NCBI RefSeq assembly: GCF_022669015.1
Contig: NZ_JAKKSL010000007.1
Span: 186,001 to 250,000, forward strand
From: Colwellia maritima
Lineage (GTDB): Bacteria; Pseudomonadota; Gammaproteobacteria; Enterobacterales; Alteromonadaceae
Length of the DNA stretch: 64,000 nucleotides
Reading direction: 5' to 3'
Made by a program: the position numbers and the translations under genes. This document shows, in pieces, positions 2,343 through 22,226 of the stretch. How positions within the stretch are numbered: position 1 is the first letter of the stretch; each line of letters begins with the position of its first letter. Below the pieces are notes generated by a model, which made no database searches, had not been told where the DNA came from, and was given only the letters and a program-made list of their open reading frames with translations.

Positions 2343-2370
2343 TGTGAATTACAACCCTTCTAACGACTAA
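2119..2370 (+). pseudogene. IS1634-family transposase, N-terminal fragment
   Basis: The protein starts MASYSTKGLDHLGLVAGM, the DUF4277-like N-terminal domain of IS1634-family transposases, and runs normally to KERPV. There the Tn7-like transposon interrupts it (position 2343), and the last codons to the stop at 2370 are transposon sequence. Joining GTTGA 2338-2342 to base 22232 restores ERPVERLIGEG in frame, which shows the gene was continuous before insertion. The ATG at 2119 fits the family start better than the upstream alternative at 2083. Confidence 0.85.
2338..2342. repeat. Left 5-bp target-site duplication of the Tn7-like transposon (GTTGA)
   Basis: GTTGA occurs immediately outside the left terminus and again at 22227-22231 immediately outside the right terminus. 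A 5-bp duplication is the hallmark of Tn7/Tn5053-type transposition. Confidence 0.9.
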
Positions 2371-2406
2371 ACAACGATATTTTGTACTACATCATTATTT
2401 TGTACT
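2343..2406. repeat. Left transposon end with terminal repeat and internal TnsB-site-like repeats
   Basis: After the 13-bp terminal repeat, ATTTTGTACT occurs twice at 18-bp spacing (2379-2388 and 2397-2406). The complementary core AGTACAA also lies near the right end (22201-22207). Repeated sites near both ends are what TnsB-type transposases bind; the assignment is inferred from position and repetition only. Confidence 0.5.
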
Positions 2407-2422
2407 GGGAACTTATCAAATA

Positions 2423-4167: not shown

Positions 4168-4200
4168 TATTTCTCTTACTCAACAAAGGTACAAATTGAC

Positions 4201-5274
4201 TCATTCATCAATTTCTGGCAACTCAACTAGTGGTCTAAATATACGAGGTAAATATTTACTTTCACAATACAACTCTTGATCCAAAGCTCGATTGTGGCAA
4301 CGTTCGATGATTATTGAGCTAATCGGCTGTTTATATTGTATATTTTTTTGACCTTCCTTCTCAAAGATTCGGTGGTATGGATGCCCTTGAGTACTAACAT
4401 CATCAAGCATATCTACATAAATTGAGGATAGCTTAAGTTGATGAATATTTTTTTGTAGTGATTCAAATATAGAAAGACCTGCTTTATCTAGATCTCCCCA
4501 AAAAATAACCAAAGACTTGATCAATATTGCTTTCAAATCCGGTTGAGGCTGATTATCTGTTGGGCAAGCAATTATTGAGTTACTTGTGATTTTATCAGCA
4601 AAGTTCTCTAATGTAAGTCCGTAGCCATATGACGATATTATTAGAGTATTGTATTTATGAGCGTACGGTTTCAGATAATTAAACACTCGAGGGTTCTCTA
4701 CAAATAAAACCTGTGAAGAAGTAGGCTGACCTGCTGTTAATATATAATAAGTAGATTCGTCATGAGGCAGCGAAATACCTAATTCTTTTGTTAACCGTGA
4801 AATGTTATCTAGAGCTTTTGAACTACCAAGTAAATGACGAGCACTAAAAATATACCTGTCATGGCTATGCATCACTCCCGATCCTTTAATTGCCAACAAA
4901 CCTTTTAAAATTTTCGCTATATCCTGTTCATTAAAGCCATCAAAATATTTATGATGCTTTATAAATATATTACGGATTTGTTGGTCATTCGTTACTTCAT
5001 CAACCACACTCTCAACTAGTTTTCGGCTTTCGGAAACAGGCTGATGTCTGATATCTGTCCAAGCAACTTTTTTTACAGGAATGCCACGAACGTTTATTCC
5101 AGTAATAAGTCCTGCTTTTGATAACTGTAATAATGCTTGTTGCACATCTATTGAGCTTAAACTCGTTTTATCTATTAGTCGCTTAATTAAAGTTCCTGGG
5201 TTAAGTTGTTTGGTACCAGGCTCGCCAATGAACTTGATTAACTCAATTTTAATTATGTCTATAGCTTCAGGCAT
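4201..5274 (-). CDS. jetD: Wadjet JetD-like Toprim nuclease subunit (DUF3322/DUF2220 type)
   Basis: A 357-aa protein. The N-terminal half is helical with winged-helix character. The C-terminal half carries the Toprim-like signature: a glutamate in VLFVENPRVF (about residue 188), an aspartate pair in FWGDLDKAGLSIFESL (about residue 260), and a late ALDQE motif equivalent to the LEQE seen in JetD proteins. In Wadjet, JetD cleaves circular plasmid DNA extruded by the JetABC motor. The start (ATG 5272-5274) overlaps the repaired end of jetC (stop 5267-5269), which indicates translational coupling. It is the last gene of the operon. Confidence 0.8.
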   Translation of the reverse strand: MPEAIDIIKIELIKFIGEPGTKQLNPGTLIKRLIDKTSLSSIDVQQALLQLSKAGLITGINVRGIPVKKVAWTDIRHQPVSESRKLVESVVDEVTNDQQIRNIFIKHHKYFDGFNEQDIAKILKGLLAIKGSGVMHSHDRYIFSARHLLGSSKALDNISRLTKELGISLPHDESTYYILTAGQPTSSQVLFVENPRVFNYLKPYAHKYNTLIISSYGYGLTLENFADKITSNSIIACPTDNQPQPDLKAILIKSLVIFWGDLDKAGLSIFESLQKNIHQLKLSSIYVDMLDDVSTQGHPYHRIFEKEGQKNIQYKQPISSIIIERCHNRALDQELYCESKYLPRIFRPLVELPEIDE

Positions 5275-8200
5275 CACATTCTTCCGACTCTAATTGCAAT
5301 GTCATTGATGCCATTTGAGTACTTTCATCAGGTTTTATTTGACTGGCATGTAATAATACACCTTTTCGATTTCTTTGGAGATATATTGTAAAAACGAGGG
5401 AATATATCAAAGTTGTTCTTGTAATATGGGTTATGTAACCATCCTATAATCTGGAATTCATCCTTAATATTCATCACAGTTTCCAACGAATCGTTAATCA
5501 TTTTTCTATCTGATAAATTGGAAAATAATCCATCAATAAGCACAACTTTATCTGCAATAGGGCTACGTTTTACACGATTTAAAGTCTTTGGTGTTGTTTA
5601 CTCGTTCTGAGTTAAATGCTGCAAGTTTTACTAATAGCAACAAACCAATCGCAGCTTTTTGACCAACAGAAAACATTTCAGATAATGGAACTAACCTATC
5701 TGCTGTTAGTCTAGGATGAATGACTTTAATCGAAGGAAGGTTGTTATTTTTATCGTCACTACCCACAAAAACTGAACGATTGAATTCTAGTTTCAGTTTT
5801 TCTTGTAACTGTGCAATATGCTGACTTTCAGTTTTGCTGACTAACCTATCGGCATTTATTAAATCACTTTGAAAGCGCTCTTCCTCAATTCTCACTGAGG
5901 TTATCATTTTGTCTATTTGATCTTGTATTTGCTCATCAGAGATAACGTTTGAGTCAAGGATAAACCCGGCTTGACCGCTTCCTTTACCTAAAGAAGATTT
6001 CATTAACTTTAAGTTTTCCTTCAATGTATTAGTAAGCAATACCATATTATTTGCTAAGGTTTGCTTTTGGTTTCTAACATCTTCCGCTGTCCGCTCTACT
6101 ATTTTTTCCTTATCAATGGCTGTTTGTTCGATATGTGGCTTTAACTTGTTTACTGCTAATACAATACGGCTAATGTCGCCATGAATTAATTCCTGACGCT
6201 CAGCTTCACGAATGACTTTATCTGTTTCAAGATTTCTTTTGATAGTTCCTACTATATCGTTTTGTTTACTATTCATGGTTTTAGTGAGAGCTGATATTTC
6301 TTCATGTGCAACTTCCAAGCCTAAGCCTTCAATTGCATCAAAAAGATTAAGGTATAATTCCGCAGTTTGATTAAGATCTCTTTTCTGATCTTCTCTAATC
6401 TCAGCTTCAATATTGATGGCATACTTAGTGAACGAGTTTAACTCTGTTGCTTCAAATGTTATTTCAAGTTCTGTTTGTAGGTAGGACGTTAATTCTGAGG
6501 CCAGATGATACATACGCATGAATTTCACATATTCCTCTTGATATTCCTTAGCCTTGAAAGCTTTATCTGGAATTTTCTCCTGATTATTCTCTATATCATC
6601 AGTTATCTTTTGTATAAGTTCATCGTTATTTATAATAGTTTCATTAATAGACTGAATTTTGCTAATTAATGTAGTGTTGTAATTTTCATCACCTTTTATA
6701 TCAACGTATGCCTGCGCTTGTTCAAAGTTGAATTTTAATTTACGTTCTAATAGACGTTTTTCTTCAATTAACTTAGATTTCTCACTTGTATAAGATTGAT
6801 CAAATACTGGGCCGGCCTCTTTCACAAACAAAGCGGCCTGTATTAATGGTGTTTTCCACTCTGAGTATTTACCATTAGCCCGAGTGTAGTTTTCGGATAA
6901 ATCTAATACATTTTGAGAAAGCTTCCTGCATTCTATTCCTTCATTCTCTACATGTTGACTAAGTGATTTTATTTTGGGTTTAATTTCGGCTAACTTTCTA
7001 CCTAGAGTGTTTATTACAGATAGCCCCCCTCATGAACGAACAACTGAGCACTAGCTAAACGAGCATAACACTGTATTTCTTTATTATTGAGTACGACAAC
7101 TTCAGCATTGAGTTGCTCTTGCTTCAACTCAATGTCGTTTAAATCGGTTTCAAGTTGCTTTAACTTATCTACACCTCCTAAAGCAATAAACCTTATAGAA
7201 TTTTGAAAACGTACTATGTTTTTGTCAGTTAAAACACTATTTAACTCATCTCTCTCCACAGCTAACCCTATTAACAAGGTTTCAGTATTAATCAGTTGTT
7301 CAATAGTCGAATTTAATTTCTCGTCACCACCTATTTGATCATAGTACTGTGCAACTTTAATTAAAAGAAACTCTCTAGAGGCTTTTACACTACTTAAACG
7401 CTTATATTCCTTAGCTGTTTCATCTACACGCTCACTACAGGCAATAAGTTTCCTCGGTGTATCTTGGCGAAATGCTTGCTTTACACGTTGTAGCCATACA
7501 TATTGTTCACTTTCTGGCGAGATTGCTTGTATTTCAATTTCAGTATCATTTATTTCTTGTTTTAATTCGCTTATTTGTACTTCTAAGCGCAACAACAGCT
7601 CAGGCAGGTAATTACTATCTTTCAGAACCTTTACATGAAGAGATTCATACGATAATAACGCAGAAGTGTTGTTACTATCTTTGCAATATGCAATGAGTTT
7701 TTCACGATAAAACACAGGATAATCCATCCCTACTTCAATAAGATGCTCTAACATTTCAGTAGCTTGTAGATTTGTTTCAACAACAGGTGCATGAAGAACA
7801 CTAGAGAACTCAGCAAGACACCTGGCTAATTGTTTTTCCGATAGACCCATTCCAGATATCACTTGATGCACAGTTTCTCCTGAAAATTCCAGTTCAGAGA
7901 GGATCTCATTCACAAGGTTGCTTGGTGTCAATTCACCGTTTTGTTTCAAATCTTTGGTATTGCGTATTAACTGATATCAGCTCTTGCCTTTTTCGCCCTA
8001 AAATTGCAGATTTGTTTCCGTATTCAGTATTTATCTGAGTAATTACCGAGTCAATATCCTTGTCATATTTACTTTCAAATTGTTCGATAGCAGATAGTAA
8101 CTCAAACTGTTCGCTCCATTCTTTATCTAGTTCAAACAATTGAGCTTTGGCCTCACTCAACTTCTTCTCAATACAGTTTTCAATATCACCTAAATCTACC

Positions 8201-10477
8201 TCTGAAAATAGGTTACCAAAGTAATTCTCAACAACCCCAAAAGAGTTACTCGCTGCCGGCAACCTTTTGAATTCTTCATCAAGTTGCGCCTTAACTGTTT
8301 CGTGTTTGCTTATTTGTGCGGTCAGCTCATTTTTTCTTGTTTGCTTATTGGTTAAAAATTGTTGTGGGTTGTCACAATTGAATTTACTAGTCACAAAATG
8401 ATAATCGTCTACAACTAATTCTAACTGTTCATGTTTGTTAGCAAGAGTTTGAGAAAATTGTTTTGCAGCGTCCAATTCTTGACTTTTTGCATCCACCTCT
8501 TTTTTAAGGTTCTTCTGGAGGTTTTCGGTAGTAGCAAGTTCGCCATCCGTATAATGATCTTTAACAGCATTGTAATCATTTTGTTTAGAGATCATCTCGT
8601 TTAATTTCACTTGCTGACTTTCAGCCTCTTGACCGAGGTTAGTTAAAGTCCTCCTATCTGTATCAAGCTGCTCACTCCTATCATTTAACTCTTTTTCTAA
8701 CTCTTCTTTTTTAGCCTTTAATTCAGTTGATTTTTTTTCTAACTCTTCAAGCTGAGAGGAGTAATCTTCTAACTCCCCGAACATACTTTTTGCACAATTA
8801 TAGTGCTCCCGAAACGGTGACAATGCAGCGTTTCGGTCATGAAGCGCTTCATATCGAGCATCATTAGCATTTTTACTTTTTTCGATGATTACAAGCGTTT
8901 CTCTAGGCGTTTCAAGCTCCTCCTTTGTAAAGTCAGGTGATTCACACATTGCGATATAAGCTTGTTCATTTAACTCATATTTTTCAATACTGTCTTGAAG
9001 TGCTTTTCGCTGTACTCCAAGTTGCTTATTTTCTTCCTGAAATTCTTTCTGCTCTAGTTTTTGCTTCTCAATATGATATTTAAACTGACATAGCTCGTCG
9101 TATATAGGATTAGGAGATGGGAGTTTATTTCTAATATCAAAGCCATAATTTATACAACGCAACAAATGCTCTTTTCCACCTTCGACAACCACTCGGTTAT
9201 CCCCGATATAACTCAGCAATGTAACTGCTTCCTCGATAGTGAAATAGTGATTACGATGCCCCCCCGTATTTTTTACACAAGCAAGATCCATAGATATTCC
9301 AATAACTTGTGATGATTTTATTTTTTTGGAAGGAATAGATTTAGATAAACATGTTTCATTTACACGAGAAACGGACATATTCAGATATTTTGCTAAAACC
9401 ATATCACTAATCAGCCATTGTCCTTCGTGAAAAGAAAGTCTGGTTGGCAATCGAGTTTTTGCTTACTTGGTTATCTTCTAATAATTCTTCATCAATTTGA
9501 GCAACCAGTCTTTCAAGAGGTTCTTTGCAAGTAATGCGATTAATCATCGCTAATTGATGGTTAAGCAGGTTTACTTGTTTATGAAGCAGAGCTTTATCAT
9601 CTTGGTAATCTTCGATCAATGTATTAGCTTCAGACAGCCAATCAAATAAATCGTTGTAAGCATCTCTATCTTGCTCAGCCTTTTCCTGCTTGATTTCAAC
9701 GGCTATAACTTTGCGAGAAGACTTAACCAATGTATCAACAAAGTGTTTTTCATCTTCTTCAGCAAAGCTACCCATAACATCCATCAATAAGTGTGGTGCT
9801 ATGTGCTCATAAAAAAAAGATGTGCTGAAATCTTCTCCTTTAGGGTGAGAATTTTGCAGTGAAAAGAAATTTCCAGTGCCATCTCCCCCTCCTGATTTTT
9901 GATAATTCAATTGCTGTTGAAGAAAGCCCATGTCGAACAACAAACTTATTGCTTCAATGTACTCACTACGATTACGATTTTGGTAACCTTTTTGATTTTT
10001 AAGCACCTCTTTGAATTGCTTATCTGTAACTAATTCGATTTGTTTACTTTCATCTTCATTTCGAACAAAGGCAACAGGACAATCAGACAGCCTTCCCTGA
10101 TAGAGGTAAAATGTAATGTCTTTGTCATAACATCCGTATAACCCCATCACATAATGTTCAACACCGCTTTCGAAAAGCTCTCTTCCTGTTGTTATTTGTT
10201 GTTTTACTTCAATACGAATATGACTAGAGATCCCCTTTTTCGATGGTGCAAGCAGTCTCTTAGTTTCTGCATGTAGGGTTCTATCTCTTGTTAATATGGT
10301 AAATATTGCATTACATAGGCGTGTTTTTCCTCGCCCATTATCAACGCGTCCTATTGCATTTTCACCATCAAAATCTAAGCATAGGTGTGGCCAATGTGCT
10401 TTCCATGCAGGATCCCAAGGATCTACTCGTTCAGTATTAAGAAAGTTAGATACTTCTACCTGAGTGATTAATGCCAT
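5267..10477 (-). CDS. jetC: Wadjet JetC-like SMC/MukB-type ATPase, very long, with several frameshifts
   Basis: The DNA-loop-extruding motor subunit. The N-terminal head has the P-loop GRVDNGRGKTRL (about residues 42-53). The middle is long heptad-rich coiled coil (about 9300-7000 and 7000-5900). The C-terminal head has an ABC-signature-like FSVGQKAAIGLLLLVKLA and Walker B/D-loop VVLIDGLFSNLSD. Five frame breaks lie at about 9452-9456 (A5), 7940-7945 (A-run), 7023-7028 (C6 on the plus strand), 5555-5560 (A-run) and 5400-5412 (CCC). Single-base corrections at each give one frame of exactly 1736 codons. JetC proteins are usually shorter (about 1100-1500 aa). The start is 3 nt after jetB. Confidence 0.75.
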
Positions 10478-10480
10478 TAG

Positions 10481-11263
10481 TTACTCCGAAAATGATTTAA
10501 TATTATTGGTACTGGGCAAGGTAAGTACCAATGAGGCATTACGATAAAAGTTTCTAGCTATATCAACAGCCGACCAAAGTGTTTGGGTATATATGTACTT
10601 TTCCGACTCTTGAAAATTAAACCCTGCTTCTTTAGCTGTTAGCTTTTCTAAAACGTTAAAGCGCTCCATTGCAGAGAAAAAACGAGATACGCGCTTACTA
10701 ATATCAGTTACTTTGGCATCAGTAAGTACATCAGCTATAGTTTTCTGCTCATCACCAGAAGATTCTTCATTCCTCATTCCTTCAATCCCTTCAATTACAC
10801 GTGTTGTGAAATCATCCTCCGAAATCCATGTGTCTTTGAAAGTACTAATTGCTTGGATCGGTCGATTTTCTTGAGTATATAGCGCATACAAAAGATGAAG
10901 ATAAAGATAAGATGTCCATACCACTGAAATGTATTTATTTTCATTACGTGCGCCATCTTTAACGGCATCCCACAATTCTTTAGTACGAAGATGAGTTGGA
11001 AGTATTTCAGTATCAGAGTGGCTAGGTATTAATACAAAAGCATTACCCTGATCACCTAAGTTATATGCTTGAGCATCTAATATTTCTAATTTAAGCTGTT
11101 GTGAATAAAGAAAAGATTGAAGATCTGATATTGAATCAATATTTCTCTCCAATAATGCTCCAATATATCTTTCATCACTTCCAATATTTTTGGCTTTGTA
11201 ACTTCTAGCAATCCGTTTTTTAAGTAGAAAACTATAAGTGTGTCCAATTTCTTCCAGTGTCAT
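10481..11263 (-). CDS. jetB: Wadjet JetB-like (MukE/kleisin-associated) subunit
   Basis: An intact 260-aa, mainly helical acidic protein between jetA and jetC. Size and position fit the JetB/MukE-like winged-helix partner that binds the JetA kleisin and the JetC heads. I see no diagnostic catalytic motif, as expected. Its ATG overlaps the jetA stop by 4 nt (ATGA type), and its own stop is 3 nt from the jetC start, so the four genes form one tight operon. Assigned mainly from operon order and size. Confidence 0.65.
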   Translation of the reverse strand: MTLEEIGHTYSFLLKKRIARSYKAKNIGSDERYIGALLERNIDSISDLQSFLYSQQLKLEILDAQAYNLGDQGNAFVLIPSHSDTEILPTHLRTKELWDAVKDGARNENKYISVVWTSYLYLHLLYALYTQENRPIQAISTFKDTWISEDDFTTRVIEGIEGMRNEESSGDEQKTIADVLTDAKVTDISKRVSRFFSAMERFNVLEKLTAKEAGFNFQESEKYIYTQTLWSAVDIARNFYRNASLVLTLPSTNNIKSFSE

Positions 11264-12620
11264 ATCATATTCCTTATAGATAGCATAACTTCAGATAGCA
11301 ATATCTTGCTGCCATTGACCAGTGTCAACGAGTGCTGACTGTCACTATTAACCCGAACGGTGATATCTTCAATTAGCTTCTGTTCATCGAAGCTTGTAGT
11401 AAATAGATCATAAATATCATCCATTTCTGACAAATTCTGCTCTTGATTAAAATGATTAATAAGCCAATGTAATTGTTTTGGCCCTGATTCCAGGTGTGTT
11501 AATAACTCTTTGCGATTCTGCTCAACCCAAGTGAATATCGGGTCGTTACCATCGTCAAAATCTACAGAGATAACTTTTGGTGTATCGTCTTTATTAGGAA
11601 GCACTAGTGCACCTGAAAAATCGATAACAGAATGGATATGAAGCGGTAGCTGCCACCGAAATGAGAGTTTGTCCAGTCCAATAATACTTCTTCACTAATT
11701 GTTGATTTAGCGAAATCATCAGCCTGACTGCTAAAATCAATAACTCCTAATCGATAATCGCGTGGTTTTTGCAGGATATTAATTAGTTGGCTAAAATTTC
11801 GACTAAGTGCTTCAATCGCTGCAATTAGTTCGTTTATATGCGCGAGCAAACGCCTGGTTGTAATGTCTGCCTCTGGGTTTGTGTTTCGTAAGTGATCTAT
11901 ATCTGCTCTAACTTCATCGCTTGATAGCATAAGTATGGCAGTTCTTGCTGCTTCTTGTGATAAGGAAAGCGTTTCTTGATAAACATGCCTACGATTCAAA
12001 TAGGATTCGGTAAGTTCATCATAGTCAGATGACTCGTACATTCGTGTTATTTCTTCGTTTAGTGAACGAAACATCACAATATTGCTTTCTACTAATGAAG
12101 GTATTCGATGAAATTCTCCCGTTTTTATTGCTCTAGCAATCTTTTCTACTTCTTTATCTTCAAACATCCAATCTTTGAAGTTACTCGTGACTCGATAAAG
12201 AAGCCTTGAGGCAGTTGTTAACCTAACCCTGTCAGAACGGATCTGATAATCTAACAGCTTGGTAAGTTTGCGTGTTGAATTCGTCTGGCCATTATCAATG
12301 TCATAAAAAAACTCACCATCTTGAGCTAAAAACTTAGCTGTTAATTTTAACTCATCAATATCAATTGAATTGTGATTAGCGTTTAACTGCTGACATATTA
12401 ACGCAAGGCTTATATATCCTGTATCCCCAGACACCGCTCTATCTGCCAAAGATTCCAGTAACTTTTGAGCAATGTAAATATACTTACCATTGAGTTGCTT
12501 AGTAGTAATTGGCTGAAGCACGCCAGAATGTTTCGTATAGCTAGTACTTTGCAATTGCACTATTCTTGACGTTGCCGCACAAATTGCAATGAATGGGTTG
12601 TCGGTATCAAAATTTAACAT
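11260..12620 (-). CDS. jetA: Wadjet JetA-like kleisin subunit (MukF-like), frameshifted
   Basis: First gene of the operon. The reading frame breaks near 11616-11620, a run of five A on the plus strand (T5 in the coding strand). Adding one T joins the 338-aa and 114-aa parts through SIFSGALVLPNK into a 453-aa protein. The N-terminal half looks like a winged-helix region and the middle is a long helical bundle (about residues 200-290), fitting a MukF/JetA-type kleisin. The ATG is 4 nt from the first of two palindromic repeats, so expression is likely controlled from the shared promoter region with the WYL regulator. Confidence 0.65.
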
Positions 12621-12624
12621 TATA

Positions 12625-12642
12625 CGTAGTATTTTACTATGG
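12625..12642. promoter_or_regulatory. Probable operator copy 1 for the WYL regulator
   Basis: CGTAGTATTTTACTATGG contains a perfect palindrome, TAGTA-TTT-TACTA. It lies just upstream of the jetA ATG in the region shared by two divergent genes and recurs 60 bp away with one change. This is what a BrxR/CapW-type dimeric repressor would recognise. Confidence 0.6.
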
Positions 12643-12684
12643 GTGTAAAAATTGTACGATCTTAAAACCTATCTGTAAAGACCC

Positions 12685-12702
12685 CGTAGCATTTTACTAT
12701 GG
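12685..12702. promoter_or_regulatory. Probable operator copy 2 for the WYL regulator
   Basis: CGTAGCATTTTACTATGG differs from copy 1 by one base (TAGCA-TTT-TACTA). It is followed by TATAATG-like sequence at 12710-12717 that could be the -10 of the regulator gene. Position between the divergent starts suggests it controls both directions. Confidence 0.55.
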
Positions 12703-12748
12703 ATAATGTTTATAATGTCGCGTAATCATTTAATTTGATATCTAAAAT

Positions 12749-13619
12749 ATGCCTGACAAAAAACAAATATACCTTTTACCAAACAAGATAGAGTTTAATG
12801 ATCTTATTAATGAATTAGATGAGCCTTTTATTCGAAAAGAAAGACTCCGTTTTATTGATGCACATTTGTTTTGGACAGGTAGATTACGTAGGGAAGATAT
12901 CTGCAAACAGTTTGATTTGCATGAAACAAACGCCAGTAAAGATATATCTATTTACATCAAATTGAGAGAGAACAATGTCCTGTATGATCGTAAAGAAAAA
13001 ATGTATAAGGCAACCCCTCTGTTTCAACCTGTAGGAAGAAAGCAATCACTCAATACGTTACTATCCTATAGCTCTCTCAATATGCAATGGAGTGGCAATG
13101 CTCCCGATTACCTATACACTCCTCCAGTGATAGATCGACAGCCTGACTTATCAACAATCCGTAATCTTGTGATTTGTGCTGAACAAAAACTTGGTATTCA
13201 AATTAAATATCACAGCATGAAAAATCCAGAAGGAAATACTAGAATTATTTTCCCACAATACTTGATTTTTGATGGTCTTCGTTGGCATACAAGGGCATTT
13301 TGCATGTTAAGAAAAGGTTACAGAGATTTTGTAGTCTCACGCATGGCGTTAAAGAAAAACCTAACGACCAACACTGATTTACCAAATGACGAACTTTGGG
13401 AAAATATCATTGAATTAAAGATACAGCCTCATAGAAAACTAACACCAAAGACAACAAAAATTAGTAAGTATGGATTTCAATATGAGCAATGGTCAGTTAA
13501 ACATAAAAATGCGACAACCGTTAGCTTATTACATTGTTAGAAATCTATATTTAGATTCAGATTTAGAGCCGCCAAGACAGTTAATTGAATGCCCTAATTG
13601 GCAAGATGTTTTGTTATGA
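12749..13619 (+). CDS. WYL-domain winged-helix transcription regulator (BrxR/CapW-like), frameshifted near its end
   Basis: A 289-aa protein after removing one A from AAAAA at 13504-13508; as read, it stops at 13540. The N-terminal winged helix is about residues 25-85 (RREDICKQFDLHETNASKDI). The WYL domain is about 130-200 (IKYHSM, FPQYLIFDGLRWHTRAFC, FVVSRM). The repaired C-terminus reads PLAYYIVRNLYLDSDL, as in the WCX region of BrxR/CapW proteins. These regulators repress many phage-defence loci and are thought to respond to nucleic-acid signals. It is divergent from jetA, with paired palindromes between them, so I infer it represses the Wadjet operon and itself. Confidence 0.8.
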
Positions 13620-13677
13620 CATAAAAATAACATTTGATTATAAATTTATATTATCAATAATGAAAAAGAAGAGTTTT

Positions 13678-15197
13678 ATGGCAAATAAAAAAGATGGATT
13701 TATGATAAATATTAATGAGTTAAAAGATCTAGACTCACATTTATCAGGTCAGCTCTCACTCAGTGAAATGCTCAATAAAGAAATAAAACAATTCATGTTC
13801 CCCACATTTAATGATTATATAAATCAACATGAATCAAATATGGATAAAATACTAGGACACAATGCAATATCATCAATCAATAATATTGAAGGTATAACAG
13901 GCTCAATAGCGTTAGAAATGGCTGACTTAACAAATAGTTTTGGTAAGGATTCTTTTCAAAATATAGCTGAAAGTACACTAGAAGAATATGAAAGATATTC
14001 AAACTTATTTTCAACGCACCCGACTAGTGAGTTAAATGATTACTTTAATAACTTAATCTCTAATACCTTAGGTAATGTATGTATTGATGAATTTTCATCA
14101 ATTAACGAGCAAATAAGACTGCTTAATAAAGACTCAGTCTTATCGTCTTTGGAAGCTGAATTAAATCTAACAGAACACCACCAACATTTATTTTCTAATT
14201 TATTTGAAACTCCAAGCTGTTAAATCAAGTTCAATCACTCAATAATAGCTTAAAACAAGCACAGTCAATGATTGAACCGTACCATGACTTACATGAGTCG
14301 GTATCTTCTATAATTATGAAAAATGTGGAAACTGAGGCAGAACAGTTATTAAAAAGTATAGAGGGAACATATAACCCAACGGCTTTTGAATTACTTGAGC
14401 AGCAAGCAGCAAGCATTGGAGAAATTTTTAATGATACCGTTATTGAAACTGCTAAAAAAGAAGGTGAAAAACTACAAAAGTTATTTGACAGTACTTTAAA
14501 TAGTTTCGGCTTAATGAAAGATGTTTCACTAAATACCTTAATTAATAGCTCCATTTTGGGTATTTCAGAAATTAAAAGCAGTCAATTACAAGAAGTACTA
14601 GATCTGGAAAGCATAGCCGGTGTTCATGGTTTAGAAGAAATGTTGAAACTTGCTACTTCTAACGCATTTGATATTGCCTCAAGCTACTTTGCAGAATATG
14701 CTGACAATTCACACACTAGCGAAGAAACTTTAAATGAATTTGAAGAGTTAATTAACAAGCCAAAGACTAATTTAACCTCTGAAAATTACATATTTTTCTA
14801 TATTTCAACTATCTTATCTCTTTTAATGTTTGTGTATTCTATACACTCTAGTAAGCAAAGTGATAAAGAGCGACAAGCTAGCATCAATGCACTTGAAACA
14901 ACGGTAATAAGTCAATTCATGATTCTTAATAGTAATACTGTTGAGATTAATAAAAAATTAAAGAAACAAACTATCGATAGCAAACCTACAGAGTACGTAG
15001 TAGAAAGAACTGTAAACCTCAGAACTAAAAATAGTACAAGCAAAGAGTCCATAATAATAACAAGCCTATATCCAAATCAAAAAGTTGAATTGTTAAAACG
15101 AGAAGGTAAATGGATTTATATTTGTTATTTTGATCATATCGAACAAGTACCAATAACTGGTCGGGTTTATAAAAAATATTTAAAGATGCTGAAGTAA
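13678..15197 (+). CDS. Unrecognised membrane-anchored helical protein with C-terminal SH3b domain (gene A of a two-gene unit)
   Basis: About 506 aa once one base is restored near 14215; as read, the frame stops at 14221 and resumes before 14268 with LLNQVQSLNNSLK. Residues 1 to about 365 are acidic, Asn/Ser/Glu/Leu-rich helices with coiled-coil character. A membrane segment follows (FFYISTILSLLMFVYSI), then a short charged helix and a bacterial SH3-like domain (VERTVNLRTK ... VELLKREGKWIYICYF ... VYKKYLK). Possible starts are 13660 or 13678. It ends 6 nt before the nuclease gene and follows the WYL regulator by about 60 nt. I do not recognise the family; a membrane sensor or effector for the nuclease is only a guess. 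Confidence 0.6.
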
Positions 15198-15203
15198 AAA
15201 ATA

Positions 15204-17282
15204 ATGCATGAACTTTTCGAAACGCTTAGCCGACCAAATCTAGACTGGTCTTTAGATTTCAATACAAAAAAAGACTTTCAAGAAGTAAAGTCGATAGAAC
15301 CCGAAATTCCTAGAGATATAAACACTGTTAATAGACTACAAGATTATCTACAGAATAGGATAAAAGATATCCTGACTGGTTCTAGTTGTACTGATAAACA
15401 ATATGAAGAAGTATCAAACCAAATTTCGTTACTCTATTTCTGTGACGGCAAACATTTTCATCTGTTTAAGTTTGTTGCCAAGCTACGAAGCTTTTTAAAT
15501 CATCTACCATCATATAGCACTGATTTAGTAAACTGGAAAAGTGCGCATAGGTTTATTCAGCTTTATTTATATACATGGAATTACCGTTTAAATTCTCTTG
15601 ATTTATACAAAGAAAATGAAACTATCGCAAAAGCAGTAAAAAAGCTTCGAAAAAAACATTTTAAAGTAACCATTCATGATGGAGAGGCACAATTAGATGA
15701 AAAAAGCTTTCAAAGGTTGCTTGACGGGATAGAATATAGAAAAGAGCAGTTAGGTTCACTATTAAACGATGCTGTACTCAACATAGCTGATACGACTTTT
15801 AATAATAGGACTGGTCGTTATTATCTACGAAAGGAAATCAATATTGGTGAGGTTGAACCACAAACACCGTTAGGCTACTTATATAATTTATCACTCACCA
15901 ATTTAAAAAATGTCAAGCGTAGCAATAAATCTAAAGCACAGCTTAAAGAAATTATAGAACTATCTAGAGACTTAATGACAATAGGTAGATTCCAAAGGCT
16001 CAATTATTTTGAAAGTATATTTTCTTCAGAAAATAATATTTTAACTTACTTAAGAAAAAACCTTATATATGATCAAGCTTTTACAATCCCTCAAATAAGC
16101 AACAAAAATGCTAATAAGATAATATATGGGTTATTCAACAACAAAATAATCAAAAATCTGGAAGTTGACTTATCAATTTATTTGGATATTTATAATGAAT
16201 TTTATAGCCGTAATGCCATGTCTAAATTATTATTTACGCCGAATGAAATTTATCTATCTTTACTTCCCCAATATACTAAAAAGTCAGTTGAAGCAGCCGT
16301 TAATACCCTAACTTTCGATGAAAAAACTATTAACAGAGACTACATAGACCCTTTTAAAACTCAAAGTATTAACTATTTTAATAAACCTTTCATTAAATCT
16401 TTTGAAAACTATTTTTATCTCAACCCAAACTTCCATGTTACTGGTTTTATAACGACCATATATGAAAAACTAATAAATACTCTTAAAAAGCAAAAACGCA
16501 AACCTAAAGAAATAGCTCAGATATATGGAGATTTATCCGAGTTATTTGTTGCAAACCTGTTTAAACAAAGAAATATAGAATACAGGCAAGGGCTAGAATA
16601 TAAACTGCAAAAGGGAGAGTTATCAGAGATTAATCATCAAGCTACAGGAGGAGAATGCGACTTCATTATAGAAACACCTGATAAAATAATATTAATTGAG
16701 CAAAAGACACAAACACTTACGTCTAAATCAAGAGAAGGAGATGTTGTAACAGGCCTTTTAAACCTAGCTCGCTCTCTGCTTAGTTCATTAGAGCAAGCAG
16801 GTCGACATGAATATATTCTCAGAACCAAAGGTTTTCTTAAATTTACCGACGGTAGCATCCTTGAATTAAAAGGTAGAAAAATTGAAAAAGTAGCTTTAAC
16901 ACTATTTGATTTTCTTAGCTTATCAGACGTTAGTAGTATTCGAGGAATTTTGATGTTTTTGATGAATAAAGAAATATCGTATTCAGGTGATAGTAGAGGT
17001 GTTACAGCCTCAGTAAAAGAAATTAACTCAACAATGGAGAAAATTAGAAACCAATATCGAAGTCAAGTATTTAGAAATGAATATCTAATGGATAATAACT
17101 TCCTTGTAACTCAGGATAACTTATTTCTAAGTGCTAATCAGCTGATTACTTTATTAGATGCATGTAAAAATAACCAAGATTTCTCCAATTTATTGGGGAG
17201 AACTAAATGCATAGCCAATAATACCCAAGATTGGTTTGTGATTTTTGACAAGTTAATCATGCGCTTCCATGAACAAAGCTAA
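15204..17282 (+). CDS. Large protein with C-terminal PD-(D/E)XK nuclease fold (gene B of a two-gene unit)
   Basis: An intact 692-aa protein. The first about 430 residues are helical and unlike any family I recognise. The C-terminal part has a PD-(D/E)XK arrangement: helix glutamate in YGDLSELFVANLF (about residue 440), aspartate in GGECDFII (about 486) and E-x-K in LIEQKTQT (about 499), followed by a long helical tail. The family includes restriction and anti-phage nucleases. It is tightly coupled to the SH3/membrane gene and lies in transposon cargo next to Wadjet, so a defence role is likely but inferred. Confidence 0.65.
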   Translation: MHELFETLSRPNLDWSLDFNTKKDFQEVKSIEPEIPRDINTVNRLQDYLQNRIKDILTGSSCTDKQYEEVSNQISLLYFCDGKHFHLFKFVAKLRSFLNHLPSYSTDLVNWKSAHRFIQLYLYTWNYRLNSLDLYKENETIAKAVKKLRKKHFKVTIHDGEAQLDEKSFQRLLDGIEYRKEQLGSLLNDAVLNIADTTFNNRTGRYYLRKEINIGEVEPQTPLGYLYNLSLTNLKNVKRSNKSKAQLKEIIELSRDLMTIGRFQRLNYFESIFSSENNILTYLRKNLIYDQAFTIPQISNKNANKIIYGLFNNKIIKNLEVDLSIYLDIYNEFYSRNAMSKLLFTPNEIYLSLLPQYTKKSVEAAVNTLTFDEKTINRDYIDPFKTQSINYFNKPFIKSFENYFYLNPNFHVTGFITTIYEKLINTLKKQKRKPKEIAQIYGDLSELFVANLFKQRNIEYRQGLEYKLQKGELSEINHQATGGECDFIIETPDKIILIEQKTQTLTSKSREGDVVTGLLNLARSLLSSLEQAGRHEYILRTKGFLKFTDGSILELKGRKIEKVALTLFDFLSLSDVSSIRGILMFLMNKEISYSGDSRGVTASVKEINSTMEKIRNQYRSQVFRNEYLMDNNFLVTQDNLFLSANQLITLLDACKNNQDFSNLLGRTKCIANNTQDWFVIFDKLIMRFHEQS

Positions 17283-17385
17283 ATATATGTTCATTAAAAT
17301 TCTATTGCTCAGTCATCTTTAAAGCTAACATTAATAAAGCAGCCACAGAGAGCACAACAACGGTTTTTATAAAAAAAACATGGAT

Positions 17386-18352
17386 TTAGGTGTCCACCAC
17401 CTTGAAATCATTTATTAACACCGGTTCTGATGAATCCCTATACAAATAATTACTTTTAACAACTTTTTTATTTATAGATTCCTCTAACTTTCTTGGCGTG
17501 TTACCAATTAACCACCAAGCAAGTTTTAAAATATAATGACGTTCATTAACGTCATATTGTTCAAAATATCGATTATCAGTAATGATACGATATAACAGAT
17601 TCGATTTGTCACATATATAGCGTTGAATATCAGGATTAAAGCGCTTAGATGAGATAATTTTGCATAACTGATGCAACAAAATTAATCGGTCGTAATTTAC
17701 AGGCCCTGAATTAACAAAACCTCTTTGAATAGCTCCTAGCACTCTATTCCATAGACTAAAAATAGCTTTAGGTTCAAGCTCAAGTAACTCTGCTGATGGT
17801 TCGCTTAATTTATTACCACATTGCCAAGCATTCATCGAGTGCAGCTACATCAATAATGTTAACTTTACCAAGTTCAATTCGATGAAAATTGACGCTTGCC
17901 CCACACTCGCAACGATCTTTCATCATTACCTTATGAATGGGGCAAAAAGTAAATAAGGAAAGACGCCAAGCAATGCGAAAATGCGGTTCTTTATCTTCAG
18001 ATAAACATATCGGACAATACTGCATACCATAAGCCGTATGCTTTCTATGATGCAGCACTAAGGGATTGATCCATCTTAATATTCCCGATGGTTTTATTTT
18101 TGGAAATAGACGATTTACATATAGGTTCAGGGTTGTTTTAGCAGCTAACTTTAGTGATATACCTGAACGCTTAGCCATAGTTTGCAAAACAAAGTTTGGC
18201 GCTAATTTATCAATATCTCTATTCCAAATCTGATTGTGTTTACCAAACGATAAATCGGAAAATGTTTGAACTTTTAAACCATTATGATGAGCTGTTCTTA
18301 CTATCCATGAAGATAAGCACTCTCCTGAATATGGGTGAGGATGAGTGGCCAT
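17386..18352 (-). CDS. tniQ: TniQ-family target-site selection protein, frameshifted
   Basis: About 321 aa after a one-base correction near 17820-17835; as read, the parts end ...ECLAMW and restart NAWQCGNK. The N-terminus (PHPYSGECLSSWIVRTAHHNG) is the classic TniQ opening. Zinc-binding cysteine/histidine pairs follow (YCPICL, then FCPIHKVMMKDRCECG, about residues 112-150). TniQ/TnsD proteins link the AAA+ TnsC/TniB to a target. At this length it is closer to TniQ of Tn5053-like elements than to full TnsD. Last gene of the transposition operon, converging on the nuclease gene. Confidence 0.85.
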
Positions 18353-18370
18353 AACTCACCTGATAACATT

Positions 18371-19266
18371 TTACATTGCTCGGTCTAGTTGTCGCTTCCG
18401 CTGCGAAGGAGTGATCCAATCAATTTTATCTAATACAGATGGTGTAATGACCTCAATGTTATTTTTAACGGCGTATACAGCCGCATCGTTTAGCAATCGC
18501 GATAATTCGCCAATATAGCCCTCACTCATTGAAAAAAGGCGCATGGCTAAGCTTTTAGCGTGTAAATTAGAGGGGTGCTTTAACGGTAACATACGCTCAA
18601 AGCTAACCAGTAACCTTAAAAAGTCCTGATTAAATTCCCAACGAGGCAGTAAAACAGGTTCAAACCGATTAGACAGTTGTGGATCAGATTGCAAAGCACG
18701 AAACGCATCTTTAGTTCCAACACCTACAATTGAAATTTGTAATTCGTTTCCTAAGTATTTAAGCACATTAAGAAAAGCACGTTGTCGATTTAGATTTCGG
18801 CTAAAATGTGGTGAATTTCATCAATAACTAATATTTTAGTCCCTATATATCTCAATAACTTTATTACCTGAAATTGCTTTTTATCAACCCGTTCACTTGG
18901 TCTATAGGGTGCGAATAATAGTTCTAGAATAGCATTATAAAAACGTCCCTCATCTGGCACTGGTGGTGCTTGAACAAGTAAAACAGGAGCAATAATGCCA
19001 TCACCATCAGGATTATCTTCTGCGGGATATTGTTTTAAGAATCGCTTTGTTAACATCGTTTTACCGTTGTTGGTATCCCCAACGATTAACATATTTGGCA
19101 TACGTTCTGTACGAGGGTAAGACAGTAAATCATCTAATTTAGTTAAAACAGTTTTAGCTTTTGGGTAACCAATCCAACGATCAGAACGAATTTTCTCAAT
19201 TCTATCCTTATCATTAAGTAATAATTGTTCAATAGCTTGTTCATTTAAATGTTTATAGCTACTCAT
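18371..19266 (-). CDS. tniB: TniB/TnsC-type AAA+ ATPase transposition regulator, frameshifted
   Basis: A 298-aa protein if one G is added in LAG at about 18795; as read, it stops at 18790. Walker A is GDTNNGKTML (about residues 63-72). Walker B is KILVIDEIHHILA (about 145-157). Sensor/arginine-finger-like IVGVGTKDAFRAL ... LSNRFEPVLLPRW follows, all typical of TniB. It forms filaments that connect the transposase with the TniQ/TnsE selectors. Its ATG (19264-19266) overlaps the tnsB stop by ATGA coupling. Confidence 0.85.
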
Positions 19267-21128
19267 GACCAATCATCCATTTCTTCAAACGGTTCAATAT
19301 CAAATTCGGCAATATCATCATCAAGTTGAACTTCATTGATTGTAGAGGGAGCCGGTATTGGTTTTTCCACTTTTCCATGTACCTTTCTTCGTTGCACTGA
19401 GCGACGAGCAGCCTTAGTCTTATGCACTGATTCCTGCTCAATTTCCCTCATTTTTTCGTAAGCTTCAAAAATCACATGCTCATTTAATGTTTTTTTACCC
19501 TCGGCTTCTGCTCTAGCAATCGCTTCTCTTAGTTCCCATATACTAATTGGGTGTGAGGTGTCTCTATATGGGATAGCAAAGTGAGTATGTAATTCAGGAT
19601 CATAAAACCATATTTGGCTTATATCACGTGGGTCTCTTCTGAAAATAAATTTACGTTTCTTTCTTGAGTCACTTTGATCTGGTGCATTAATCCATGGACG
19701 TAATACATCGTGATAATAATGAACCTTATCAATGACAACACCATAGTCTTGTATTGAACGAAGCTCATACGGCATAAAATCAAATTTTAAGCGTTCCTCA
19801 TCTTTAATTTTTGCAGGTAAGCCACAGCCTGGGTTGTGCTCATCACCTAAAATACCTTGCTTATATTTGGCTAGTGGTGTCATACCGATCATTGAATGGA
19901 TTTTTTGGTGATATACATTAACAACATAATTAGCTAGCCAATGTTCGAATTCAGTTAACGTCAGAGAGGCTTTTGACTCTGAATCATAATCACCTTTTTC
20001 TGTAATATTGGCAAAAGTTGAACCTGGCAGTGCGTGTATTTCTTTTGAAAAAGTACCGAGCACACGTTCTACGTGAGCACCAAAATTTGGTCTAGCAACA
20101 GGTCTCCACTCAATATCGATATTGTACTGCTCACATGCTTTTTGAAGCATATTGCCTCGAAATTCTTTAGCATTGTCCACATGAACTTTAGCCGGTAGCC
20201 CCCAAAGCGGCCATTCACCATTAATATCGTACTTAGCCAACCACCTCTCTTTAGGTAAAATTGAATGAATTAGACATAAGCCTGTAGTCATTGCACTAGG
20301 AGGATCGAAAGAAACGTAAAAACCAGTAACCATTCGACTATAAACATCAAAAGCTAAAGTGATCCAAGGTCTACCAATCGCTTTACGGTAATGGTCATCA
20401 ACTAAAATAATATCTAGCTTAGTATGGTCGATTTGAACTGCTGCTAATGGCCAATCTGCCCCTGGAAATTTACCTTTAATTGGTCGGTAGGTATTGTCAG
20501 AAACTTTACGCCCTTGTCTACGGGAAGCAAATAACTCTGGCGATAACGCCTTTATTCTATTCCTAATGGTATTATCGTGAGGTGGTGTTAAGTTTTGCTT
20601 TCTGCATAACTTTTTAACTTCATCAATCACCATTCGTTGTAATTTTTTTTGCTTAGTTAGATATTCAGTTGCGATCGCTTGTTTAATTAATTCTTCAATT
20701 TCATCATCAAACTTAGTAGAGCCACGATCTCGCCTAACCTTTGGTAACAAAGATGATAATAAGCCAGATGATTCGTATAACTTTAACCATCCATATAATG
20801 TATTAGTATGCATATTATTTTCAGCTGCGACTTTTGCAACATCAGCTCGACTACGCTTATCTAAATTCAATAGCGGTTTTATGGCTTGTAAACGTGATTT
20901 AGCAATAGCCCATGATTCATCGGTTATATTTAATAGTTCTTCAGAAGGAGCCAATATTTCAGTTTTATCGAGTTCAATATCTGCAATCGATACATTGTGT
21001 GAATCACCAGTGACTTCATCCACTATTACAACTTGAGACAAATCAAGAAGCTCAGCAACTCGATAATTCGTTCCTTTATATGAAATTTTTTTACCTGGTT
21101 CTATTTTAACTAACGTTGCAGATTCCAT
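19263..21128 (-). CDS. tnsB: TniA/TnsB-type DDE transposase
   Basis: An intact 621-aa protein. N-terminal helix-turn-helix domains bind the transposon ends (about residues 75-215). The RNase-H-like catalytic core has the first Asp in VQIDHTKLD (about 232), the second Asp in VHVDNAKEF (about 314) and the Glu in GAHVERVLG (about 350). A Mu-transposase-like beta barrel follows, with an acidic C-terminal tail that probably contacts the AAA+ regulator. It joins the 3' ends of the element to target DNA, making the 5-bp duplication seen here. It is 5 nt from tnsA. Confidence 0.92.
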   Translation of the reverse strand: MESATLVKIEPGKKISYKGTNYRVAELLDLSQVVIVDEVTGDSHNVSIADIELDKTEILAPSEELLNITDESWAIAKSRLQAIKPLLNLDKRSRADVAKVAAENNMHTNTLYGWLKLYESSGLLSSLLPKVRRDRGSTKFDDEIEELIKQAIATEYLTKQKKLQRMVIDEVKKLCRKQNLTPPHDNTIRNRIKALSPELFASRRQGRKVSDNTYRPIKGKFPGADWPLAAVQIDHTKLDIILVDDHYRKAIGRPWITLAFDVYSRMVTGFYVSFDPPSAMTTGLCLIHSILPKERWLAKYDINGEWPLWGLPAKVHVDNAKEFRGNMLQKACEQYNIDIEWRPVARPNFGAHVERVLGTFSKEIHALPGSTFANITEKGDYDSESKASLTLTEFEHWLANYVVNVYHQKIHSMIGMTPLAKYKQGILGDEHNPGCGLPAKIKDEERLKFDFMPYELRSIQDYGVVIDKVHYYHDVLRPWINAPDQSDSRKKRKFIFRRDPRDISQIWFYDPELHTHFAIPYRDTSHPISIWELREAIARAEAEGKKTLNEHVIFEAYEKMREIEQESVHKTKAARRSVQRRKVHGKVEKPIPAPSTINEVQLDDDIAEFDIEPFEEMDDWS

Positions 21129-21133
21129 ATAAA

Positions 21134-21778
21134 TTATCTCTTCCAGATTTTACTAGTCATGGTGATTTTTGAAGCTAAATCAATTTGAATTTGCCTAGTA
21201 CCGATTAAATACCATAACGTTGGTAACAGTGCTGCTTGGTTCCATTCATCATTGTAAATTGATGCTAAAATCGCTTTAGGTGAAGTAGTGCCTAACTCTA
21301 AAATTTTATCGTCTAAGATCATCATATCATTTTCGTTAGCAGCACCTTGTCGAACAAACGGCAACAAGAACTTCACTGACTCTAGGTATGTAGATCTGAT
21401 TTCAGTTTCAGTTATTAATTTAAACTTCCAGTTATTTTCTTTGCAGAAGCGAATGGCGGCTTTAAATTTCGGCTTCAATACACTCCAATTTTTATTAATA
21501 TCGTCTCGATACTTAACTTCAAAGAGTGTTGTAAATTTCTTACCTTTACCGTAATAAACTAATACATCCGGAGTGTATGAACGAGGCTTACCTAATTCAT
21601 TCATCCATTCCAGTTTAATTGGCTGAACTTCAAAGCGTTCAACATTTCTGTCAAATTCTAAGAGCATTAAAAAATCGCGTTCTAAGGTTGACTCAAACAT
21701 AGCTTGGCCATCCGCTTTTGAATGCGCGGCAATGCCCGTTACATTGCTATAATTTTTGGGGATCTTTCTGATAGGCAT
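21134..21778 (-). CDS. tnsA: TnsA-type endonuclease for 5'-end cleavage
   Basis: A 214-aa restriction-endonuclease-fold protein. Catalytic residues appear as Glu in MFESTLERDFL, Asp in SYTPDVLVYY and the E-x-K pair in LFEVKYRD. The C-terminal part is the TnsC-interacting winged-helix region. TnsA cuts the non-transferred strands so that transposition is cut-and-paste. The start MPIRKIPKNYSN (ATG 21776-21778) is preferred because the longer start at 21814 would overlap the upstream gene. Confidence 0.88.
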   Translation of the reverse strand: MPIRKIPKNYSNVTGIAAHSKADGQAMFESTLERDFLMLLEFDRNVERFEVQPIKLEWMNELGKPRSYTPDVLVYYGKGKKFTTLFEVKYRDDINKNWSVLKPKFKAAIRFCKENNWKFKLITETEIRSTYLESVKFLLPFVRQGAANENDMMILDDKILELGTTSPKAILASIYNDEWNQAALLPTLWYLIGTRQIQIDLASKITMTSKIWKR

Positions 21779-21785
21779 AATAAAC

Positions 21786-22070
21786 TTACTTATATGGACT
21801 ATCTGGTGAACCAATCTCTAATCCTACAGGACCACCTAGTTCACCTTGTAGTTTCCTTTTTCGGCACCAGGCGATCGCTATTTTATCGAAGGTTTCAGCC
21901 GGAATAGCAACGGTAAGCTGTTCACTAGACTCAGTTTTTGCAATGCTAAATTCTTCAGGATTATTCGATTGAATAACGGCGGGGTTGTTGTTGTCATCAT
22001 CAAACGTTATTTCTTGATAACAGCCTATATCAGGATTATCTTGTTCGTAAATCCACTCTTTTGTGCTCAT
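21786..22070 (-). CDS. Small acidic protein of unknown function leading the tns operon
   Basis: 94 aa. The N-terminal half is acidic (EQDNPDIG, FDDDNNN). The C-terminal half is basic and Gly/Pro-rich (AWCRKRKLQGELGGPVGLEI). It is the first gene after the right transposon end and stops 7 nt before tnsA, so it is almost certainly cotranscribed with the transposition genes. I do not recognise a family. Position suggests a transposition accessory or regulator, but nothing in the sequence proves it. Confidence 0.6.
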   Translation of the reverse strand: MSTKEWIYEQDNPDIGCYQEITFDDDNNNPAVIQSNNPEEFSIAKTESSEQLTVAIPAETFDKIAIAWCRKRKLQGELGGPVGLEIGSPDSPYK

Positions 22071-22144
22071 GACGTATCCCTATAAATAAAATCAACATTC
22101 AATCCAGTGCATTTTATTGATGTAATTGGTTATAAAATTTAATA

Positions 22145-22173
22145 ATCACTTTATGTCAGTAGCCTAAAGTGAT
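22145..22173. promoter_or_regulatory. Inverted repeat in the tns promoter region
   Basis: ATCACTTTA (22145-22153) and TAAAGTGAT (22165-22173) are perfect 9-bp arms around 11 nt, between the right transposon end and the first tns gene. It could be an operator for tns expression or part of the transposase-binding end. There is no T-run, so it is probably not a terminator. Confidence 0.45.
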
Positions 22174-22200
22174 GTAAAAATGAATGTAAATATTAATTAT

Positions 22201-22226
22201 AGTACAACAGAACGTTGTAATTCACA
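22201..22226. repeat. Right end of the Tn7-like transposon
   Basis: GTTGTAATTCACA (22214-22226) is the exact complement of the left terminus 2343-2355. AGTACAA at 22201-22207 matches the core of the repeats near the left end. The flank GTTGA (22227-22231) duplicates 2338-2342. Confidence 0.85.

Follow-up and report, generated by a model that had tools for sequence, protein, structure and literature searches.

A family of nuclease-like proteins often carried near diverse defence genes: a candidate stand-alone defence nuclease in the cargo of a Tn7-like transposon

Introduction

In a window of 64,000 nucleotides from Colwellia maritima, the whole stretch of DNA analysed here, two closely spaced genes lie among the genes of a mobile element. 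An initial annotation, made without database searches, read these genes (here gene A and gene B) as a candidate for an undescribed two-gene defence system that pairs a membrane protein ending in an SH3b domain with a protein ending in a PD-(D/E)XK nuclease. The locus therefore raises the question of whether A and B belong together and, if they do not, what either gene might do in the company of others. We approached this by following the two families separately through other loci and genomes, by comparing gene B with named families and modelled or solved structures, and by delimiting the element that carries both genes.

Materials and Methods

Sixteen non-redundant gene B loci were counted outside the window (17 with the window included). 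Left out of this count were L013 (which repeats the context of L010), L038 (with the genes of L001), L005 and L022 (the window's own genome), and additional plasmid records from Alteromonas (three), Xanthomonas (two) and Bradyrhizobium (one), together with L024-L032, L054 and L055, whose match covers the profile only in part. Both L059, a fragment that lies at the end of a contig, and L006, where an insertion sequence interrupts the copy, were kept. Eleven members of the gene B family were scanned with Pfam and PADLOC. The Foldseek list obtained with the full-length model of gene B was left out as support, as that model was too poor to interpret (mean pLDDT 52, pTM 0.37).

Results

A complete Tn7-like transposon carries gene A and gene B as cargo (Table 1), which bears out the earlier placement of gene B in mobile-element cargo. 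The element has genes for TnsA, a TnsB-like protein, TnsC/TniB and TniQ, inverted ends starting with TGT and a 5-bp target duplication, and it interrupts an apparent insertion-sequence transposase gene, with a DDE transposase match to its right. The cargo position given for the pair, between Wadjet-type genes (recognised by a JetD_C match) and the TnsA, TnsB-like, TniB and TniQ genes, was likewise confirmed. Gene B as one of JetA-D of Wadjet was considered and rejected: no Jet model matched it, and the Wadjet-type genes form a separate minus-strand block.

Table 1. Coordinates of the transposon, its cargo and the features of genes A and B, as positions in the window.
Feature	Position	Strand	Description
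Complete Tn7-like transposon	2343..22226	.	13-bp perfect inverted ends TGTGAATTACAAC; 5-bp duplication GTTGA at 2338-2342 and 22227-22231
Wadjet-type cluster	4201..12620	-	Several broken ORFs; JetD_C match 4201-5277, weak SMC/JetC-like matches 7933-9450, rest by gene order
WYL-domain regulator	12749..13540	+	Just upstream of gene A; Pfam WYL E 3.9e-8, PADLOC WYL E 6.1e-12
Upstream ORF, probably N-terminal part of gene A	13660..14223	+	187 aa from ATG 13660; 212 aa from TTG 13585
Gene A C-terminal open frame	14208..15197	+	ATG 14268, 309 aa; helical region, membrane segment, SH3b
Gene A predicted membrane segment	14787..14843	+	Hydropathy scan
Gene A SH3b-like domain	15009..15122	+	Pfam SH3_3 stretch, under cut-off in window copy; family conservation continues to ~15191
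Gene B	15204..17282	+	692 aa, intact; ~430 helix-rich residues of unknown fold and C-terminal PD-(D/E)XK-like nuclease
Gene B nuclease core	16503..16898	+	~residues 434-565; helix, E446, D486, E499-x-K501, Q531
Tn7-like transposition genes	17386..21814	-	TniQ (second frame by position only), TniB/TnsC (two frames), TnsB-like, TnsA; Pfam

The 6-nt spacing reported for the two genes is correct when counted from the stop of the C-terminal frame of gene A (15197), on the same strand. Of what was initially described for gene A, the membrane segment and the SH3b domain at the C-terminus exist, but the single reading frame does not. Because the ORF that ends at 14223 overlaps another frame, which is open from 14208 and has its first ATG at 14268, with a change of frame at about 14205-14223, the gene A product is split as assembled. 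Comparable frame breaks occur at other places in the window, cobO among them. The upstream ORF found no match in plasmids and, in eight genomes, only two chance-level matches (E 0.042 and 0.1). Just before it, a WYL-like C-terminus, read by eye, runs to 13619 in a frame other than that of the WYL-domain regulator.

The proposed two-gene unit was not borne out, as homologues of the two genes were not found together. Searched with the gene A profile, none of the 16 other gene B loci yielded an A-like gene, and the gene B profile found nothing in 10 gene A loci (five clear relatives of A and five weaker matches); some of the loci searched have short flanks. Across genome samples of 369, 247 and 378, which overlap, both families were matched only in the window's own genome; both are rare, and this limits the weight of their failure to co-occur. 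On these profile searches of loci and three genome samples, we reject a recurrent two-gene A-B system as the best reading. Nor did an all-against-all comparison of neighbouring frames in the 17 gene B loci reveal a recurrent partner other than IS-type transposases, antisense frames of gene B and, in two of the 17, a WYL gene.

We read gene A as an SH3b protein in its own right, anchored in the membrane and from a family that moves without gene B. Its hydrophobic segment spans residues 194-212 of the open frame (mean hydropathy 1.94). The window copy falls under the Pfam cut-off for SH3_3 (E 0.0011), all four relatives scanned exceed it, and the family profile matches solved SH3b chains (best E 2.2e-5). 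In these respects the family resembles SH3b-domain envelope proteins; unlike them, it combines a membrane segment with a long helical N-terminus that varies and, in some relatives, is repetitive. Relatives with membrane segment and SH3b domain occur away from gene B: one lies, by eye, between hsdS- and hsdR-like genes (L019), one some 225 bp ahead of a pAgo gene that is followed by a DpnII/MboI-type nuclease gene (L062), and one adjoins an Abi_C protein (L018). Viral relatives were not found in a pattern-based or single-protein search. On our best reading, gene A is a neighbour of gene B and at most an optional accessory.

Gene B looks like a nuclease, judging from its conserved motif and a domain model, with catalysis and DNA as the substrate being what these features would predict. 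D486, E499, K501 and Q531 are invariant in all 15 aligned family members. Three of the nuclease residues named initially (D486, E499 and K501) were numbered correctly, but the fourth, given as E440, was not: residue 440 is an isoleucine that varies among homologues, and the conserved glutamate is E446, kept in 14 of the 15 members and replaced by Asp in the copy from L040. In the nuclease-domain model, with core blocks at pLDDT of about 71-95 and one at 57, the elements run helix-strand-strand-strand-helix-strand, so that the conserved D and ExK sit in the alpha-beta core order of the PD-(D/E)XK superfamily. No Foldseek match with the gene B models reached E 0.001. Among the 50 matches listed, of 408 for the domain model, about 40 are PD-(D/E)XK-type nucleases or larger proteins containing one, with many repeats, including R2, SSO0001, SduA, McrC, Can2 and viral cap-snatching endonucleases; at least nine of the 50 are unrelated proteins. 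The gene B sequence found no relative among solved structures beyond one chance-level match (E 0.97).

No named defence system in the libraries searched (Pfam, PADLOC 2023, NCBIfam and PHROGs) has a claim on gene B, whose window copy has weak matches only. Among the 11 members scanned, NERD (PF08378) was weakly matched in five (best E 0.0052), and DpnII (Pfam, E 2.7e-4) and Csx1 (E 6.4e-4) in one each. In PADLOC, Cas4_II gave a weak match in two members, and the window copy matched Cas4 weakly (E 0.0024 over 56 residues). Gene B has the motif order E, D, ExK, Q in common with NERD and Cas4/RecB-type nucleases; it differs from both in its own 430-aa N-terminal region, and its window copy scores 16.8 bits against a NERD gathering score of 22.1. 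The PADLOC candidates PDC-M29B (five of 11, best E 3.4e-4) and HEC-02B (three of 11, best E 1.9e-3) also matched weakly, far more so than the best PADLOC matches for nine of ten tested neighbours (E below 1e-60); a search of the open literature for the term PDC-M29 found no paper.

In Shedu one protein makes up the whole system, and a PD-(D/E)XK nuclease at its C-terminus follows an N-terminal part that varies. Gene B would share this architecture, and an SduA chain ranked eighth among its Foldseek matches, a non-significant one (E 0.24). Unlike Shedu, however, none of the 11 members matched DUF4263 at E 0.1, and no Shedu model appeared among the PADLOC matches; membership of Shedu was rejected on the absence of DUF4263.

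Pattern-based or single-protein searches found no viral relatives of gene B. A DNA-level search of E. coli, of a kind that hardly addresses distant proteins, gave no match, and among the titles and abstract openings listed by keyword searches of the open literature, which cover only part of what is in print, none describes the protein. On sequence evidence, gene B belongs to a coherent, uncatalogued family of nuclease-like bacterial proteins.

Named defence systems, all different, lie within about 3 kb of gene B in 7 of the 16 other loci, a count based on neighbours picked by eye without a matched control. By PADLOC these are Hachiman (L002), Lamassu with Gabija (L004), BilD (L009), Dsr1 (L012) and HmaC of Hma (L065), and, further, type I restriction (L003) and a short pAgo with SIR2 (L056). 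The gap to gene B is about 100 bp after Dsr1, about 240 bp after HamB and about 210 bp ahead of the SIR2 gene, whereas some 2.8 kb that hold other genes separate it from BilD. The other nine loci, with neighbours again chosen by eye, have no recognised named PADLOC system; one of these is a sugar/O-antigen-type cluster (L040) and another has housekeeping surroundings (L001), both as judged by eye.

Discussion

We lean towards gene B as a defence nuclease that acts alone and travels as cargo of the transposon, a reading that we hold to be probable, if only just. Its mode of action would resemble that of Shedu or of a restriction enzyme, although gene B is not a member of Shedu. The C-terminal domain, with E446, D486, E499-x-K501 and Q531, would cleave nucleic acid, most probably DNA that an invading phage or plasmid brings in; the 430 residues of the N-terminus may hold the nuclease inactive, recognise the invader or a partner, or do both; and the upstream WYL regulator would control expression, with gene A contributing as an accessory if at all.

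The neighbourhoods of gene B can also be read in other ways. Conjugative plasmids are frequent among its carriers (10 of 13 records were typed so), which makes a role in plasmid biology possible, and gene B might be a mobile-element nuclease for plasmid maintenance, plasmid-plasmid competition or counter-defence whose defence neighbours just share its cargo spots. Its place in a Tn7-like transposon and the nine loci lacking a recognised system fit such a role, which we regard as rather unlikely; against it stand the seven loci with a named defence system close by, all different, and a tblastn search with the window protein in which 50,697 phage records yielded nothing at E 0.001. Proximity to those systems admits a further interpretation, for in four loci (L002, L004, L012 and L056) gene B is co-directional with, and about 100-490 bp from, different systems, as might be expected of an accessory nuclease that plugs into one system or another and does not act alone. 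Yet no single system recurs, and several copies of gene B, such as those in L001 and L040, have no recognised system beside them, so that we consider this account very improbable.

A genuine two-component system, in which A serves as membrane sensor or anchor for the nuclease, could have gone unseen in the sampled relatives if it were recent or rare. The two genes do follow each other on one strand, 6 nt apart and downstream of the WYL regulator, and A-family genes directly adjoin other defence-type genes in L019, L062 and L018. We nonetheless judge it improbable, given that A and B do not co-occur in 16 other B loci, 10 A loci or the sampled genomes beyond the window's own, and that the frame of gene A is broken as assembled. 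Since the pair does not recur in this sample, a doubtful two-gene system stays out of the catalogues.

Should gene B prove to be a defence nuclease, its family would be a new one for the four libraries, where it is not clearly named, and a single gene would be enough for a clean test of how a nuclease that has a large sensor region of its own separates invader from host. A bolder proposal, which we think unlikely, is that gene B founds an undescribed single-protein immune nuclease, in which a 430-residue sensor of unknown fold would respond to a feature of invading DNA or of infection, spread on conjugative plasmids and here on a Tn7-like transposon, while the gene A family would be a portable membrane SH3b module placed beside different effectors (gene B, a pAgo gene, a type I restriction operon and an Abi_C protein).

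A sister family (L041, L042 and L057) matches part of the gene B profile, including the nuclease region (E 1.7e-5 to 2.2e-13), but differs in its N-terminus; not L041 but L042 and, in a neighbouring frame, L057 have by eye a SEC-C-like C-terminus.

Genes A and B outside the window

The initial annotation had proposed gene A (a membrane protein gene with an SH3b region) and gene B (a PD-(D/E)XK-like nuclease candidate) as one defence unit; outside the window, however, neither profile finds its partner in the loci of the other family. The A-family profile returned no A-like gene in any gene B locus except the window, and the gene B profile no B in ten A loci (the five clear relatives from which the A profile had been built and five weaker matches). 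For A and B alike, samples were of equal size at each taxonomic level and held the same genomes as far as the listings show: A was matched in three and B in three of 247 genomes of the order (one A match being SH3-only, within a 1924-aa frame), A in four and, at E 0.001, B in 11 of 369 genomes of the class (the majority of the B matches being partial), and, at E 1e-5, A in nine (mostly weak) and B in five of 378 genomes of the phylum. These counts include the window's own genome and come from overlapping samples that are not independent; that genome was the only one in which both were matched.

Reading frame and relatives of gene A

The 6-nt spacing between the stop of the C-terminal frame of gene A and the start of gene B was borne out, and gene A, previously described as a single gene, proved to be two overlapping frames in the assembly. 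The upstream ORF found no match in a plasmid search and only two chance-level matches in eight genomes, seven of which carry A-family matches. Elsewhere in the window, cobO is split into two ORFs (profile positions 1–41 and 49–172), TniB is divided into positions 1–133 and 145–188, and two NRPS condensation domains are likewise cut, which suggests widespread indels in the assembly. Because these conserved genes are similarly interrupted, we take the break in gene A to belong to a window-wide pattern and to be probably an assembly indel, decay of the gene being a conceivable, less probable alternative. A large NRPS-type cluster in the window has condensation, adenylation, carrier and FkbH domains.

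Both features ascribed to gene A recur in its family: six of six aligned relatives have one hydrophobic segment (mean hydropathy 1.84–2.28 over 19 residues) and a C-terminal SH3b region, with SH3_3 above cut-off in all four relatives scanned. Lys/Arg counts favour an inside N-terminus in four of the six, a pattern from which the window copy departs. The N-terminus is variable, and by eye is repetitive in L020, L061 and L064, where tandem peptide repeats differ between species; these might form a fast-changing recognition or spacer region. Neighbourhoods differ: an A-family gene adjoins an Abi_C protein gene in L018 and, by eye, lies between hsdS- and hsdR-like genes in L019, sits inside an apparent Mu-like prophage in L061 and has no defence gene seen around it in L037. 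At L062, an A-family SH3b gene is followed after about 225 bp by a pAgo gene and then by a DpnII/MboI-type nuclease gene, possibly a unit of its own.

Gene B as a rare nuclease-like family

Gene B is an intact ORF and its family is rare. Relatives were found on four genome contigs and in 13 plasmid records (15 and 14 with other family members as query), and the 246 further genomes of the order yielded two, one identical to a contig already among the four. The profile was matched over most of its length in one of 368 other genomes of the class and one of 377 of the phylum, the remaining matches covering part of it only. The 15 aligned members all share P222, N377, P395, G442, Y466, D486, E499, K501, G512, Q531 and L539; 14 of the 15 also have E446. 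Three of the four nuclease residues proposed earlier (D486, E499 and K501) are thus among the invariant positions; the fourth, E440, is isoleucine in the window and variable among aligned members. A sister family (L041, L042, L057) has the nuclease region in common with gene B; L042 has a visible SEC-C-like C-terminus, as does L057 in an adjacent frame.

The full-length AlphaFold model (five sequences) was poor (pLDDT 52, pTM 0.37), and that of residues 386–645 (mean pLDDT 65.8, pTM 0.66) was usable in its core, with core blocks at about 71–95 and one at 57. Foldseek returned 408 matches for the nuclease-domain model, the best at E 0.025. We take about 40 of the best 50 to be PD-(D/E)XK-type nucleases, or polymerases or retroelement proteins containing such a domain, and at least nine of the 50 are unrelated proteins; many entries are repeated, and some are large, with the aligned domain unspecified. 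Since no fold match was significant, the predicted membership of gene B among PD-(D/E)XK nucleases rests on motif and topology.

We infer that gene B would act alone, its N-terminal region serving as sensor or target binder and its C-terminal nuclease attacking invading DNA, restrained by regulation and by its own N-terminus. Shedu is presumably the nearest known system in what gene B works like, but gene B is not a member, DUF4263 being matched in none of 11 family members. Other immune operons have been tied to WYL regulators (PMC9122588, PMC9122601). According to PMC13092281, PD-(D/E)XK nucleases were the commonest domain (9%) in that screen's predicted, uncharacterised defence clusters; among 31 further validated systems, 13 contained one. 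Another family of this type is therefore of interest without being startling. The same paper describes tests of 24 transcription units, distantly homologous to known defence proteins but with low model scores and including six PD-(D/E)XK nucleases; only one of the units protected, which shows that a motif by itself is no proof of defence.

Surroundings of gene B relatives

Besides the window, 16 non-redundant gene B loci were considered. PADLOC was run on 20 proteins, 18 of them gene B neighbours picked by eye and two gene A neighbours, and placed named systems near gene B in seven loci (see table); three of the 18 had no match at E 1e-5. L008 held a candidate pair only (PDC-M30) and L010 one protein with a weak candidate match (PDC-S11, E 3.7e-7). 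No named PADLOC system was recognised in L001, L006, L007, L011, L039, L040 or L059, judged from annotations or by-eye ORFs, where misses are possible. Annotated near the gene B relative are a RelE/RelB pair and a caspase-family protein in L006 and, about 3 kb away, an AbiEii/AbiGii-type toxin gene in L007. The surroundings in L040 are by eye a sugar/O-antigen-type cluster, which speaks against a family tied to defence alone. The only recurrent neighbours were IS-type transposases and a WYL gene, the latter in the window and in L009.

Features of the window and PADLOC systems near gene B relatives
Location	Feature	Details	Basis
Window 1172-1812, 18371-19272, 35298-36768, 48730-50612	Split conserved genes	cobO, TniB, NRPS condensation domains	
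Window 2343-22226	Complete Tn7-like transposon		Inverted ends, target duplication
Window 2656-4167	503-aa ORF	Just inside left transposon end	
Window 13585 (TTG) or 13660 (ATG) to 14223	Gene A upstream ORF		ORF reading
Window 14208-15197	Gene A second frame	Open from 14208, first ATG 14268, stop 15197	ORF reading
Window 15204-17282	Gene B	692 aa	
Window about 35000-63900	NRPS-type cluster		
L062 7903-12749	SH3b, pAgo and nuclease genes		
L002	Hachiman	HamA E 2.9e-102, HamB E 0	PADLOC
L003	Type I restriction enzyme	E 7.9e-67	PADLOC
L004	Lamassu and Gabija	One each side of gene B relative	PADLOC
L009	BilD	E 6.5e-175, about 2.8 kb off	PADLOC
L012	Dsr1	E 3.8e-80	PADLOC
L056	pAgo and SIR2 partner		PADLOC
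L065	HmaC	E 6.3e-283, opposite strand	PADLOC

The carrier transposon

In the window, genes A and B are cargo of a Tn7-like transposon, together with a Wadjet-type block (JetD_C E 5e-7; JetC matches weak) and a WYL regulator (E 3.9e-8). The transposon is bounded by perfect 13-bp inverted repeats (TGTGAATTACAAC) and flanked by the 5-bp duplication GTTGA; the transposition genes are TnsA, a TnsB-like transposase, TniB and TniQ. It lies within an apparent insertion-sequence transposase gene, recognised on the right side by a Pfam DDE match and on the left by eye only. Wadjet is among the defence cargo often borne by Tn7-like elements (PMC8649781); a term search of the main text of that paper found neither NERD nor SH3. 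The 503-aa ORF gave no Pfam match at E 0.01 and no NCBIfam match at E 0.1, and may encode a transposition or cargo protein.
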